Assembly (NCBI RefSeq): GCF_030167915.1 | Contig: NZ_JARGNB010000002.1 | Location: 186,001-250,000, forward strand | From: Aquabacterium humicola | Lineage (GTDB): Bacteria; Pseudomonadota; Gammaproteobacteria; Burkholderiales; Burkholderiaceae_C | DNA: 64,000 nt | Direction of reading: 5' to 3' | In this document: positions 57,187 to 61,982 of the stretch, in pieces | How the letters are laid out: every line of letters begins with the position of its first letter | How positions within the stretch are numbered: the stretch's first letter is position 1 | Program-made: the position numbers and the translations under genes | Notes under the pieces: model-generated | Databases searched by the model: none | Told to the model about the DNA's origin: nothing | Seen by the model: only the letters and a program-made list of their open reading frames with translations

Positions 57187-58395
57187 ATGCGGTACCGGGA
57201 TCTCTGTGGGCGGGCGCTGGCGACGATGGCCGTCGTGTTCGCACCAGCACTGGTGCAGGCGCAAGGCGCCGGCCCGCTGCGCATCGGCTTCATCTGCCCG
57301 GCCAGCGGCGGCTCGGCCGATTTCGGCACCAGCGCGCGGCTCGGTGCCGAGCTCGCGGTGCAGGAAATCAACGAAGCCGGCGGCTTCCTCGGCCGCACGG
57401 TGCAGCTCGTCGCGCGCGACGACCAGGCCAATCCGGACAAAGGCCGCGCGATGGCCGAGGACCTGGTGCTGAAGGAGAAGGTCGACTTCACGATCGGCTT
57501 CTGCAATACCGGCGTGGCGCTGAAGTCGCTCGACGTGTTCCAGGACAACAAGCACCTGCTGCTGGTTCCGGTGTCCACCGGCTCGGCGGTGACCGCCAAG
57601 TACCCGGCCGCCGAGAGCTTCATCTTCCGCCTGTCTCCGCGCGACCGCCTGCAGGCCGCGGCGCTGGTGGCCGACCTGGTCGAGCGGCGCAAGCTGACGA
57701 AGATCGCGGTCTTCGCCGACCGCACCGGCTACGGCGAAGGCGGTTACAAGGACGTGGTCGGCTTCCTCGGCGAGCGCGGGCTGCAGCCGGTGTACAGCGG
57801 CCGCTTCGATCTCGGCGTCAAGAGCCTCGTCGCCGAGGTGCAGGCGGCGAAAGCCGCCGGCGCGCAGGCGCTGATCGGCTACTCGGTCGGCCCCGAGCTC
57901 GCGGTGCTGGCCGCCGCGCGCCGCGAGGCGAAGTTCGACGGCCTGCTGTACGGGCCCTGGCCGATGTCCTTCCGCACCGTCTGGGAACACTCCGGCGGCG
58001 GCGCCGAAGGCGCGGTGATGGTGCAGTCGATCATCCCGAACCTGGCGAACGAGCGCCGCAGCTCGTTCATCGCACGGCTGAAGCGCCATGCGGGCAGCCA
58101 GAGCATCGCCTCGCTGATGGCCGCGGCGCAAACCTACGACTCGGTGCACCTGATGCTGCGCGCGCTGTTCCAGACCCGCGGCGCCGGCGGCGCCGCGAGC
58201 CTGAAGAACGCGCTCGAGAACCTCGAGAAGCCCTACGTCGGCGTGATCACCACCTACGAACGGCCGTTCTCGAAGGCCGACCACGACGCGTTCACGATGA
58301 ACATGATCTGGCTCGGCACCTGGCGCGGCGGCGAGATCCGCTACCAGTACGCCGAGGATGAGAAGCGCGCCGGCTTCATCCGACGGAAAGAGTGA
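57187..58395 (+). CDS. Branched-chain amino acid ABC transporter binding protein (LivK-like)
   Basis: 402 residues with signal peptide (MAVVFAPALVQA). The type 1 periplasmic fold is clear: LRIGFICPASGGSADFGTSARLGAELAVQEINEAGGFLGR, VDFTIGFCNTGVALKSLDV, KIAVFADRTGYGEGG. GAGGAG precedes the ATG. It is the likely partner of LivHMGF although it follows rather than leads the operon. Ligand unknown; aromatic acids, amides and urea are bound by relatives. Its end overlaps convergent argD by 20 bases. Confidence 0.9.
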   Translation: MRYRDLCGRALATMAVVFAPALVQAQGAGPLRIGFICPASGGSADFGTSARLGAELAVQEINEAGGFLGRTVQLVARDDQANPDKGRAMAEDLVLKEKVDFTIGFCNTGVALKSLDVFQDNKHLLLVPVSTGSAVTAKYPAAESFIFRLSPRDRLQAAALVADLVERRKLTKIAVFADRTGYGEGGYKDVVGFLGERGLQPVYSGRFDLGVKSLVAEVQAAKAAGAQALIGYSVGPELAVLAAARREAKFDGLLYGPWPMSFRTVWEHSGGGAEGAVMVQSIIPNLANERRSSFIARLKRHAGSQSIASLMAAAQTYDSVHLMLRALFQTRGAGGAASLKNALENLEKPYVGVITTYERPFSKADHDAFTMNMIWLGTWRGGEIRYQYAEDEKRAGFIRRKE

Positions 58396-59599
58396 GCTCG
58401 GCGAGCACCTCGTCGAGCATCGCCAGCGCCAGCTCGACCTCGCCGCTGCCGACGTTCAGTGCCGGCATGAAGCGCAAGGTGCCGGGCCTGGCGGCGTTGA
58501 CCAGCAGCCCCGGCCGCTTGTCGTCGGCGCGCCGACGCAGCGCGTCGACGATCGTCGCGGCGCCGTCGTCCGGCACGTCGAGCGCGCGCAGCAGGCCCTG
58601 ACCGCGCACTGCGCCGAGCCCGTGCCGCTTCGACAGCTCCGCCAGCCCCTGCGCCAGCTGCTCGCCGCGCGCGCACACCGCTGCCAGGAACGAGGGCCGC
58701 GCAACCTGCTGCAGCACCGCGCGCGCGACCGCGCAGACCAGCGAGTTGCCGTTGTAGGTGCCGCCCTGGTCGCCGGGCGCGAAGCAGCAGACCGCTTCGC
58801 TGGCCAGCAGCGCGCCGATCGGCACGCCGCCGCCCAGGCCTTTGCCGAGCGTGACGATGTCCGGCCGCAGCCCCAGGCCCTGGTGCAGGAAGAGCGGGCC
58901 GCAGCGGCCGACGCCGGTCTGCACTTCGTCGACGATCAGCAGCAAGCCGTGCCGGTCGCACAGGCGCCGCAGGCCGGCGACGAAGCCGGCATCGGCCTCG
59001 ATCACGCCGGCCTCGCCCTGCACCAGCTCCAGCATCACCGCGACCGTGTGGCCGTCGATGGCGGCCTCGACCGCATCCAGGTCGTTGTACGGCAGCTTGA
59101 CGAAGCCCGGCAGCACCGGCGGGAACAGGCGGTCGAAGCCGGGCTTGCCGCTCGCTGCCATCGTCGCCAGCGTGCGGCCGTGGAAGCTGTTGCCGAAGCT
59201 GAGGATCGTGCTGGCGCCGCGCCGGTGCAGTTGCCCCCATTTGCGCGCGAGCTTGATCGCGCCTTCGTTGGCCTCGGCGCCCGAGTTGGTGAAGAACACG
59301 CGGTCCAGGCTCGCCAGGCGCGTCAGCTCGGCCGCCAGCCCGATCGCCTGGTCGTTGTGGAAGCCGGGACCGGTGTGCAGCAGCCGGCCCGACTGCTGCA
59401 CCAGCGCGTCGGTGATGACGGCGGGCGCATGGCCCAGCGCGTTGACCGCCCAGCCCTGCACGAAGTCGAGGTAGCGGTGGCCGGTCGAGTCCCACAGCCA
59501 GCTGCCGAGGCCGCGCACGAACACGGCGGGCGGGCGCTGGGTGACGTGCATCAGCGCGTCGGTGGGGAACTGCTCGAAAGCAAGCGTCGTCGGGGTCAT
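58376..59599 (-). CDS. argD: Acetylornithine aminotransferase
   Basis: 407 residues. Class III PLP enzyme: GHRYLDFVQGWAVNALGH (the Burkholderiales ArgD pattern), FFTNSGAEANEGAIKLARKWG, SFHGRTLATMAASG, IVDEVQTGVGRCG and the PLP lysine in TLGKGLGGG. ArgD makes N-acetylornithine in arginine synthesis. AGGAAA lies before the ATG inside a 10-bp hairpin, and an Arg-rich leader frame lies upstream, suggesting cis control by arginine supply. No other arg gene is near. Confidence 0.9.
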   Translation of the reverse strand: MTPTTLAFEQFPTDALMHVTQRPPAVFVRGLGSWLWDSTGHRYLDFVQGWAVNALGHAPAVITDALVQQSGRLLHTGPGFHNDQAIGLAAELTRLASLDRVFFTNSGAEANEGAIKLARKWGQLHRRGASTILSFGNSFHGRTLATMAASGKPGFDRLFPPVLPGFVKLPYNDLDAVEAAIDGHTVAVMLELVQGEAGVIEADAGFVAGLRRLCDRHGLLLIVDEVQTGVGRCGPLFLHQGLGLRPDIVTLGKGLGGGVPIGALLASEAVCCFAPGDQGGTYNGNSLVCAVARAVLQQVARPSFLAAVCARGEQLAQGLAELSKRHGLGAVRGQGLLRALDVPDDGAATIVDALRRRADDKRPGLLVNAARPGTLRFMPALNVGSGEVELALAMLDEVLAELTLSVG

Positions 59600-59632
59600 C
59601 GGGTTTCCTGGGGTGGAGAGGAAGGAAACCCG
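59600..59632 (-). promoter_or_regulatory. Hairpin that sequesters the argD ribosome site
   Basis: On the minus strand CGGGTTTCCT (59632-59623) pairs perfectly with AGGAAACCCG (59609-59600), loop of 13 bases. The second arm holds the argD Shine-Dalgarno AGGA and abuts the ATG at 59599. Such a hairpin would block initiation unless opened. Confidence 0.65.
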
Positions 59633-59679
59633 CCGCGGCCTGGAAGAGGGAGCCCCGGGAAGGCGACCCTGAAAGCGAT

Positions 59680-59707
59680 GAAGGCCACGACGGGTGTCGT
59701 GGCCTTC
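59680..59707 (-). promoter_or_regulatory. Perfect 12-bp hairpin in the argD leader
   Basis: GAAGGCCACGAC (59707-59696 on the minus strand) pairs with GTCGTGGCCTTC (59691-59680), loop ACCC. It lies 43 bases after the leader peptide stop and about 80 bases before argD. After it comes ATCGCTTTC, a weak U-rich tail. It could be a terminator-like or pausing structure in an attenuator. Confidence 0.6.
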
Positions 59708-59750
59708 GGTGGTGCCCTTCGGTGGGCCCTACGCAGTCGCTACGTCCCGC

Positions 59751-59810
59751 TCAACGGTGTCGTCGAGCGCGGCGTCGCAGCGAAAGTTGTGGGGTCGAAA
59801 GGGTCCTCAT
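59751..59810 (-). CDS. Arginine-rich leader peptide upstream of argD
   Basis: A 19-codon frame reading MRTLSTPQLSLRRRARRHR, stop TGA. Seven of 19 residues are Arg, six within the last eight codons. Three are CGA and one AGG, codons that the neighbouring genes use little. There is no ribosome site; the candidate transcription start lies only a few bases upstream, so it would be translated nearly leaderless. The position between a promoter and two strong hairpins ahead of argD supports a role as an arginine-sensing leader. The call is inference. Confidence 0.55.
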   Translation of the reverse strand: MRTLSTPQLSLRRRARRHR

Positions 59811-59819
59811 GGCGCGCGA

Positions 59820-59849
59820 AGACTAATCGACGCTGCTGCAGTGCGTCAA
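59820..59849 (-). promoter_or_regulatory. Candidate argD promoter
   Basis: On the minus strand TTGACG (59849-59844), then 17 bases, then TTAGTC (59826-59821), or TAGTCT with 18. Transcription would start near 59812-59816, right at the leader peptide ATG (59810). Confidence 0.5.
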
Positions 59850-59856
59850 GCGGCAG

Positions 59857-60849
59857 TCAGTCGACCTTGGCGCCGGAGGCCTTCACCACCGGCTCGTAGC
59901 GCCGGAGCTCGGCGGCGACGAAGGCCGCGAACTGTTCGGGCGTGGTCGGCGCAGGCTCGGCCATCAGCGTCGCGAGGCGGCTCTTCAGCTCGGCGCTGGC
60001 CAGCGCGTCGGAGAAGGCCTTGTGCAGCCGCGCCAGTACGTCGGCCGGCAGCTTCGCCGGGCCGAAGAGGCCGAACCAGGTGCCGACGTCGAAGTCCTTC
60101 AGGCCCAGCGTGGCGCCGGTGTCGGCGATCGTCGGCAACTCGGGAAGCGCGCTAGAACGGGTCTTCGTCGTCAGCGCCAGCGCGCGCAGCTTGCCGGACT
60201 TGATGTTGGCCGAGGCCGACGCCAGGTTGTCGAAGTTGAGATCCACCTGGCCGGACAGCAGCGCCAGCTGCGCCGGGTTGCCGCCGGCGTAGGGGATGTG
60301 GACCATGAACACGCCGGCCTGCGCCTTGAACATCTCGCCGGCCAGGTGCCCCGCGCTGCCGTTGCCGCCCGAGCCGTAGTTCAGCTTCGCGGGATGGCGC
60401 TTCGCGTAGCTGACGAGGTCGGCGACGCTCGCGATGTTCAGCCTCGCCGCGGTCTCGGCGTTCATCACCAGCACGTTGGGCACCAGCGCGACACGGGTGA
60501 TCGGCGTGAAGTCCTTGATCGGGTCGTAGGGCAGCCTGGCGTACAGCCAGGGGTTGATCGCGTGCGTCGCGACCGCGCCCATCACGATGGAATGGCCGTC
60601 CGGTGCGGCCTTGGCGATCTGATCGGCGCCGAGGTTGCCGCCGGCGCCAGGCCGGTTCTCGACGATCACGGTGCCCAGCGAGTCCTTCACCGCGTTCGCG
60701 AGCGCGCGCGCAACGATGTCCAGCGGCCCGCCGGGCGGGTAGGGCACCACCAGGCGGATCGGGCGCGGCGCCTGCGCGAAGGCGGGGGCGGTGCCGGCGG
60801 CGAGCAGCGCGGCGAGTTGGCGGAGGTGGGTGCGTCGATCGATCGTCAT
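59857..60849 (-). CDS. Tripartite tricarboxylate transporter binding protein (TctC/Bug family)
   Basis: 330 residues. Signal peptide (LAALLAAGTAPAFAQ) and the Bug fold: PIRLVVPYPPGGPLDIVARAL, VIVENRPGAGGNLGADQIAKAAPDGHS, LNYGSGGNGSAGHLAGEMFK. Bug proteins bind carboxylates or other small acids. No TctA or TctB gene is near, typical of the many orphan Bug proteins of Burkholderiales. The ATG overlaps the stop of the reductase gene (ATGA). Confidence 0.93.
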   Translation of the reverse strand: MTIDRRTHLRQLAALLAAGTAPAFAQAPRPIRLVVPYPPGGPLDIVARALANAVKDSLGTVIVENRPGAGGNLGADQIAKAAPDGHSIVMGAVATHAINPWLYARLPYDPIKDFTPITRVALVPNVLVMNAETAARLNIASVADLVSYAKRHPAKLNYGSGGNGSAGHLAGEMFKAQAGVFMVHIPYAGGNPAQLALLSGQVDLNFDNLASASANIKSGKLRALALTTKTRSSALPELPTIADTGATLGLKDFDVGTWFGLFGPAKLPADVLARLHKAFSDALASAELKSRLATLMAEPAPTTPEQFAAFVAAELRRYEPVVKASGAKVD

Positions 60850-61889
60850 GCGAGCTCGCCGTGCTTGTCGGCTTCGGAGGTGAAAGCGTCGGCGTAGAAC
60901 TCCTCCGCCGGCAGGCCGCAGCGGGCGACGAAGTCGCGCTGCGCGGACTCGACCATGATCGGCGCGCCGCAGGCATAGACCTGGTGGCCGGACAGATCGG
61001 GCAGGTCGTGCATGACCGCTTCGTGCACGAAGCCGGCCCGGCCGCCCCAGCCATCCTCGGGCTTCGCCTCCGACAGCACCGGCACGTAGCGCAGGCTCGG
61101 CAGCTCCTGCGTCGCGGCCTCGGCCCAGTCGTGAAGGTACAGGTCGCCACGCTGGCGGCAACCCCAGTACAGCACCGCGGGGCGCGTGCTGCCGATCTCG
61201 ATCAGCCGTTCGATGATCGCCTTGATCGGCGCGAAGCCGGTGCCCGACGCCAGCAGCACGATCGGCTTGTCCGACGCCTCGCGCAGGAAGAAGCTGCCGA
61301 AGGGGCCCTCCATGCGCAGGATGTCGCGCTCCTTCATCACGTTGAACACATGGTCGGTGAACTTGCCGCCGGGCATGTGGCGCAGGTGCAGCTCGATCGC
61401 CGGCGGGCTGCCGAGGCGGCTCGGCGCATTGGCCATCGAGTAGCTGCGGCGCGAACCATCGCGCAGGATGAACTCGATGTACTGACCGGCGTGGTACTGG
61501 AAGTTCTGGTTCGCCGGCAGTTGCACCTTCAGCACGGCGACGTCCGGCGCGCGGCGCTCGATCGTCAGCACGCGGCCCGGCATCTTCAGGATCGGGAACT
61601 CGCCGGCGCCCGGCACGCTGCGCGCTTCGATCACGCAATCGGTCTGCGGCGTCGAGCAGCAGGTCAGCACCAGGCCGGCCTCTTCCTCGGCGTGCGACAG
61701 CGCCTTCGCCTGGTGCGCGCCGTGCAGCACGCGCCCTTCGAGCAATCGGCTCTTGCACGAGCCGCACGCGCCGTCGCGGCAGCCGTAGGGCAGGCCGATG
61801 CCCTGGCGGATGGCCGCTGCCAGGATCGGTTCGTCGCGGGCCACGTCGAACTGGCGGCCGGCGGGGAGAATGGTGACACTGAACGTCAT
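60846..61889 (-). CDS. 2Fe-2S ferredoxin/FAD/NAD(P)H reductase (CDP-6-deoxyglucoseen reductase-like)
   Basis: 347 residues. The N-terminal plant-type ferredoxin domain has YGCRDGACGSCKSRLLEG plus CCS for the 2Fe-2S cluster. The reductase part has the FAD motif RRSYSMANAP and the NAD(P) motif LASGTGFAPIKAIIERL, with YACGAPIMVESAQRDF near the end. Such proteins feed electrons to an oxygenase or the AscD-type enzyme; no oxygenase is near. The start at 61889 fits the family. First gene of a coupled pair with the TctC gene. Confidence 0.9.
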   Translation of the reverse strand: MTFSVTILPAGRQFDVARDEPILAAAIRQGIGLPYGCRDGACGSCKSRLLEGRVLHGAHQAKALSHAEEEAGLVLTCCSTPQTDCVIEARSVPGAGEFPILKMPGRVLTIERRAPDVAVLKVQLPANQNFQYHAGQYIEFILRDGSRRSYSMANAPSRLGSPPAIELHLRHMPGGKFTDHVFNVMKERDILRMEGPFGSFFLREASDKPIVLLASGTGFAPIKAIIERLIEIGSTRPAVLYWGCRQRGDLYLHDWAEAATQELPSLRYVPVLSEAKPEDGWGGRAGFVHEAVMHDLPDLSGHQVYACGAPIMVESAQRDFVARCGLPAEEFYADAFTSEADKHGELA

Positions 61890-61982
61890 GATCGGGTCGC
61901 GCGTGCGGCCGAGTTGAGGCGGCCGAGTTACAGCGGCCGCCATTGTGCCCGCCGCTGCCTGCCCGCCCTGGATGCCGTCCCG

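Follow-up and report, generated by a model that had tools for sequence, protein, structure and literature searches.

The 210 bases that precede an argD-type gene in Aquabacterium humicola very probably act as an arginine attenuator. The mechanism would be ribosome-mediated attenuation of transcription, with a leaderless, arginine-rich peptide as the leader. We observed an open reading frame with a conserved run of arginine codons and accompanying hairpins, which recur before argD-type genes across many lineages; ArgR had no match in the genomes searched. The leader is real and conserved, and most likely works as an arginine attenuator.

We infer a chain of events that runs from a promoter through leaderless translation, stalling and termination to an arginine response. 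The RNA would begin at, or adjoining, the start codon of the 19-codon leader, whose translation would proceed in the absence of a Shine-Dalgarno sequence. If charged Arg-tRNA runs low, the ribosome would stall in the arginine run and open the hairpin that spans the arginine codons, freeing the bases just 3′ of the stop codon; by pairing with the downstream hairpin at its 5′ arm and loop, these bases would keep the terminator from forming, and argD would be transcribed. When arginine is plentiful, a ribosome at the stop codon would cover the same bases, and the terminator would form and end transcription early. Because an arginine-rich leader and a putative terminator hairpin stand before an arginine gene, here and in many relatives in which no ArgR was found, the gene is very probably switched on upon arginine shortage.

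The leader locus and its downstream gene

Leader and argD both lie on the minus strand of the window, by which we mean the whole 64,000-nt stretch of A. humicola DNA that was analyzed (Table 1). The original prediction had described a 19-codon frame on the argD strand, and this frame was located at 59810-59751, with its ATG at 59810 and its TGA at 59753-59751. It contains seven arginine codons, six of them within the final eight codons and four of them CGA or AGG, just as had been described.

Table 1. Features of the leader locus and argD (window coordinates).
Feature	Position	Strand	Basis or remark
-35-like hexamer TTGACG	59844..59849	-	Read from sequence
-10-like hexamer TAGTCT	59820..59825	-	Spacer to TTGACG, 18 nt; read from sequence
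Predicted transcript start	about 59813-59811	-	Inferred from promoter-like site
Leader ORF MRTLSTPQLSLRRRARRHR and stop	59751..59810	-	Conserved Arg-rich ORF at equivalent place in relatives
Arg codon run CGA CGC CGC GCT CGA CGA CAC CGT, proposed regulatory	59754..59777	-	Sequence; CGA over-used relative to window genes
Protector (1:2) hairpin GCTCGACG-ACAC-CGTTGAGC	59749..59768	-	Spans last Arg codons and stop; MFE fold
Proposed antiterminator 5′ arm CGGGACGT	59742..59749	-	Immediately 3′ of stop codon; can base-pair with the terminator (5′ arm and loop)
Putative terminator hairpin GAAGGCCACGAC-ACCC-GTCGTGGCCTTC, then weak U-tract ATCGCTTTCA	59680..59707	-	Sequence, fold, relatives
Shine-Dalgarno-like AGGAA of argD	59605..59609	-	Read from sequence
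argD paralog, acetylornithine transaminase, NF002985/PRK03715 type	58376..59599	-	Aminotran_3 match

A promoter had also been proposed for this frame. The pair TTGACG/TAGTCT makes one plausible, but it does not look strong, and a consensus scan reported neither a promoter nor a terminator at the leader region. TAGTCT ends nine bases 5′ of the leader ATG, and the RNA is therefore predicted to start at the ATG or no more than about 3 nt from it. No Shine-Dalgarno sequence was seen for the leader ORF, which would be leaderless, or nearly so, with its ATG at about +1. Between this ORF and argD lies a perfect hairpin of 12 bp (59707-59680), and the leader from 59810 to 59660 folds at -75.8 kcal/mol, compared with a mean of -50.7 for shuffled sequences (z -6.6, 200 shuffles). 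Upstream of the leader is a gene of the TctC family, tctC, with its 3′ end at 59857; together with a 2Fe-2S flavin reductase frame it occupies 59857-61943 on the same strand, and frames with similar final residues were noticed by eye upstream of argD in Cupriavidus and Oxalobacteraceae as well.

The next gene had been named as argD of arginine synthesis. It is indeed of argD type and on the same strand, but it is a second gene of this kind. The product of 59599-58376 is a class-III aminotransferase whose best NCBIfam model is NF002985, acetylornithine transaminase, with a score of 548.5 bits that narrowly misses the cut-off of 568. The same genome (G000) also has a canonical argD (TIGR00707, 465 bits), adjoining argF on the same contig, and by these model matches the window argD is a second, NF002985-type acetylornithine transaminase. 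Control of the window argD therefore need not govern arginine flux in this organism. The canonical argD-argF pair (L002, G000:C12:79202-80335, and L148) is about 165 kb away from the window argD.

Other leader-bearing genes are of NF002985 type too, among them those of Cupriavidus sp. BIS7 (779 bits), Bradyrhizobium (643) and the family member G127 (572), and so is the gene without a leader in G011 (578), a genome of the same genus. The leader-bearing gene is the sole strong argD match in Cupriavidus sp. BIS7 (402.9 bits; next 275.8) and the best one in Herminiimonas (392.6; next 352.8). In five genomes, no arginine leader of the same build was found before argF, argG or canonical argD, and no terminator-like hairpin was found upstream of these genes at 11 loci. 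In G000 an arginine-bearing GTG frame, MEVLRRSMPKSGRTPHRSRRPPPSHPAV, precedes the canonical argD, and in G143 a similar frame lies about 1.4 kb 5′ of argF, both without a terminator. For argC, the only matches were below the cut-off. NF002985-like argD genes without a leader were also seen in G011 and five family genomes (L109, L123-L127); they form a branch of their own, and several have an almost zero gap to the preceding gene.

Conservation of the leader and of its arginine codons

A close argD is present in 6 of the 21 genomes of the genus, A. humicola included, and the leader is present in five of these six (G000, G143, G155, G157 and G160) and absent from G011, despite its close argD. 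The leader also precedes argD in Caldimonas mangrovi, in the family member G178, and in G053. Among these relatives the leader peptides differ (MRSPTPLLSLRRRARRHR, MHALTQASTHTVALRRRTRRHR, MCMTLARALRRRARRSC, MHSTLARALRRRVRRPR, MLTQLLLTAKHWNRRTRRRR), with the arginine run and the hairpin kept. A covariance model, run on 298 family genomes, gave matches in 16 of them; in nine these are argD leaders, strong in G000, G143, G157, G160 and G053 and weak in G056, G127, G076 and G191. Matches in the other seven genomes, which do not lie before argD and resemble chance hairpins, were rejected. A DNA search of 150 genomes returned 20 matches, all of them short (22-113 bases) outside the own genome and G143. 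At tight cut-offs, protein searches of family genomes returned few of them (6 of 299 at 1e-140; 16 of 150 at 1e-100). Four family genomes (L112-L115) carry a variant leader before argD, in which the arginines are spaced by alanine (RAARAARARR) and a T-rich terminator follows.

At greater distances, an arginine-rich upstream ORF followed by a terminator was found at 42 of 84 distinct argD loci (after removal of the duplicates L005, L006 and L100 and of loci at ≤50% identity), a count that probably includes a few ORFs other than the true leader. The same rule applied to other residues gave 9 loci for Pro, 7 for Ala, 5 for Ser, one each for Leu and Thr, and none for Gly, Val, His, Asp, Lys, Glu or Gln; on shuffled sequence it gave 0-2 matches per round in ten rounds.

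We also applied a strict rule that is blind to arginine: TTGAC had to be followed after 34-48 nt by the start codon of a frame of 10-45 codons, with a terminator no more than 120 nt away and then argD. This arrangement was found at 47 of 101 argD loci, and in all 47 the ORF is Arg-rich (three or more Arg in 9 residues); many of the 47 are closely related and so not independent. Elsewhere in these loci (1.56 Mb, both strands) the rule gave two matches, neither of them Arg-rich. The 47 come from the window genus (5), Caldimonas, other family members (3), Oxalobacteraceae (7), the Cupriavidus group (7), Pandoraea, Propionivibrio, Bradyrhizobium (18) and metagenome bins (4). The device is not local; its occurrences are spread over Beta- and some Alphaproteobacteria.

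These counts bear directly on the idea that GC-rich DNA is simply full of arginine-rich frames and that the hairpin is the terminator of the upstream tctC. Arginine-rich chance frames are indeed common in such DNA, and the consensus scan finds no promoter, but the difference between 47 of 47 strict matches at argD and 0 of 2 elsewhere led us to reject a chance frame; chance is excluded because the leader is conserved in relatives. A tctC terminator was rejected as well, for in G157, G160, Cupriavidus and Bradyrhizobium the leader is found before argD although the sequence farther upstream is different. We regard this whole explanation as barely credible.

The strict rule found nothing at the remaining 54 of the 101 argD loci, G011 among them, and at the Alcaligenaceae argD loci nothing resembling the leader was seen. 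At eight loci missed by the rule (L032, L052, L077, L110, L112-L115), an arginine ORF and a hairpin are present, a judgement made partly by eye. On a tree of the 101 ArgD proteins, the leader label requires 12 changes, compared with 33.8 in shuffles; the labels were taken from the strict rule, and some of the 'none' labels are therefore false. In L052, from Rhodocyclaceae, five consecutive arginines (MLNIPVPLRRRRRFPSHGRLCAMPGWAVTGD) and an imperfect terminator are found about 165 nt 5′ of argD. In L039, a Glaciimonas bin without a leader, a nearly perfect 20-bp inverted repeat lies about 95 nt 5′ of argD.

Within the leader peptide, conservation is concentrated on arginine. Summed over four clades, columns that are mostly arginine hold 16 other residues in 27 columns, compared with 116 in the 62 remaining columns, and all but one of the four clades show synonymous change among the arginine codons (extra codons: 4, 0, 2 and 3). 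The choice of codons is unusual: CGA accounts for 94 of the 361 arginine codons pooled from the 47 leaders, whereas among 1,448 arginine codons of window genes (44 long high-GC3 ORFs) CGA makes up 1.9% and AGG 1.3%. Relative to this usage, the share of CGA or AGG in the window leader has a binomial probability of 3e-5.

A polybasic chain or rare CGA codons could in principle arrest the ribosome by themselves, and the leader would then sense translation speed or a ligand instead of the charging of arginyl-tRNA. The over-use of CGA and the polybasic nature of the arginine runs are what such an arrest peptide might display. The sequence around the arginine codons, however, varies from lineage to lineage (RRRARRHR, RAARAARARR, SRRSMNARR, RRRSRDDDGLRHVRRRR), and the downstream genes are of argD type. 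The lack of conservation around the arginine codons therefore speaks for codon sensing, and we consider an arrest peptide very unlikely.

Predicted alternative pairings and a modeled ribosome stall

Pairing was analyzed first in A2, an alignment of the seven leaders near the window. The protector hairpin (GCTCGACG/CGTTGAGC) is paired in 96.3% of cells, and two of its pairs show two-sided change, a number equalled by 7 of 500 shuffles. In the comparison with relatives suggested at the outset, the arginine codons were conserved with synonymous change, the hairpin was compensated, and the argD context was kept; together these support the arginine-attenuation reading of the original prediction.

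A proposed antiterminator can form between the terminator's 5′ arm and loop (ACGACACCCG) and the bases 3′ of the stop codon, which read CGGGATCGT in relatives and CGGGACGT in the window. In A2 it is paired in 96.3% of cells, compared with 36-61% when the segments are slid, with no two-sided changes. The Cupriavidus and Bradyrhizobium groups have different sequences and the same antiterminator pairing, in 94.8% and 95.1% of cells, with no two-sided change in the former and one in the latter; over all three clade alignments, slid pairings reach 26-63%. In Bradyrhizobium, two-sided change is seen at two pairs of the terminator and at one pair of the hairpin over the arginine codons.

We then modeled a stalled ribosome that hides everything up to 12 nt beyond the stalled arginine codon. 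Three leaders (L044, L053 and L069) were set aside as wrongly picked, and with no value for G007 the count covers 51 of 52 leaders. In 50 of these 51 the 5′ arm of the terminator is predicted to pair upstream above shuffles. In 48 the stalled state shows more of this pairing than RNA free of ribosomes, and in 47 more than RNA with a ribosome at the stop codon. Of 18 lineage representatives, which were picked after the first results, 17 show this pairing above shuffles (Fisher p 2e-4). L068 and L029 show no stall-model signal.

The window's own leader gives a weaker picture, and its present role is less sure than that of the copies in relatives. Its antiterminator has a probability of 0.47, compared with a shuffled mean of 0.45 (39.5% of shuffles are equally high), whereas that of G143 has 0.66, compared with 0.48. 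The antiterminator region of the window is one base shorter than in relatives; relatives including Caldimonas have T-rich tails after the hairpin, whereas the U-tract of the window is poor.

The poor U-tract in the window, and a scan that finds no terminator, would fit a leader with translation, RNA decay or Rho-dependent termination as its target, stalling in the arginine run altering access to the argD mRNA or to a Rho site, as at speF of Salmonella. There is precedent for this in the speF study, in which two consecutive arginine codons act via Rho, access to the ribosome-binding site, and RNase G (PMC6386406). On the other side, many relatives have a hairpin followed by tails of T5 or longer (for example TTTTTCTTT and TTTTTGTTTTT), and we judge this route unlikely.

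A further alternative is an action mainly in trans, by the attenuated RNA or the peptide, like that of rnTrpL/peTrpL of Sinorhizobium. A leaderless ORF within an attenuator is a build shared with rnTrpL (PMC10117765), but the argD leader peptide is poorly conserved outside its arginine run, and a main role in trans is quite unlikely.

A known RNA family (T-box, riboswitch or sRNA) was rejected. At gathering score, Rfam gave no match in the whole window or at 10 relative loci; there were subthreshold matches only (E up to 5), the best of which, RAGATH-10 and CcsR1, are far under their gathering scores.

Probable arginine control where ArgR was not found, and relation to known leaders

The original prediction had noted that arginine genes in proteobacteria are normally controlled by ArgR. 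This does not apply here: a search for the N-terminal ArgR family, PF01316, gave no match in any of the 150 family genomes, the own genome included, or of the 19 chosen genomes, and it matched in 9 of 14 control genomes. ArgR control of argD was rejected on the absence of PF01316 from the searched genomes. The ArgR/AhrC repressor also places argD-type genes under arginine control, and differs from the present device in being a protein repressor. One published study states that ArgR is absent outside gammaproteobacteria in the genome set used (PMC5343134).

The leader has likenesses to several described systems. The leader ORF orf34/SpeFL of Salmonella speF likewise has consecutive arginine codons, and its translation responds to arginine, but the gene controlled is an ornithine decarboxylase, and control is exerted via Rho, access to the ribosome-binding site, and RNase G (PMC6386406). 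The core motif HIRRT given there for SpeFL is absent, by reading, from the 19-residue window peptide. The rnTrpL/peTrpL leader of Sinorhizobium meliloti is alike in having a leaderless ORF in an attenuator and differs in its amino acid, tryptophan, and its gene, trpE (PMC10117765). The carA leader of Pseudomonas aeruginosa shares a leader peptide before a gene of arginine and pyrimidine synthesis, but concerns another gene, and the attenuation reported for it is pyrimidine control (PMC4997734).

Our searches of the open-access literature, with subscription papers mostly outside their reach, found no earlier report of an arginine attenuator at argD, in line with the novelty that had been claimed for a peptide-based arginine switch at this gene. 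The main text of a genome-wide attenuator study contains neither 'argD' nor 'arginine' (PMC2965389).

What would be new here is arginine as the amino acid; the mechanism itself is known. Ribosome-mediated transcription attenuators are known at the trp, his, leu, ilv, thr and phe operons. With these classical devices the argD leader shares an ORF rich in codons for the end product and a place before a synthesis gene, with predicted alternative hairpins and a putative terminator; it differs in that the amino acid is arginine, the ORF is seemingly leaderless, and a single argD-type gene follows. We know of no ribosome-mediated transcription attenuator for arginine, and Vitreschak et al. (2004) reportedly list none.

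Taken more broadly, leaderless attenuators of this kind probably form a widespread class, the first of the classical type for arginine, which would control argD of NF002985 type in Beta- and some Alphaproteobacteria and serve as an arginine sensor where ArgR is missing, with the arginine run, the terminator and the pairing logic kept while peptide and RNA sequences changed almost beyond recognition. How bacteria without ArgR adjust arginine synthesis to supply has been little described, and the lineages concerned include Cupriavidus and Bradyrhizobium. A switch at argD that counts codons would extend classical attenuation to one more amino acid, arginine. Attenuation through arginine codons would also mark the NF002985-type argD as biosynthetic, and the switch would help assign transaminases of this type to arginine synthesis and not to its breakdown.
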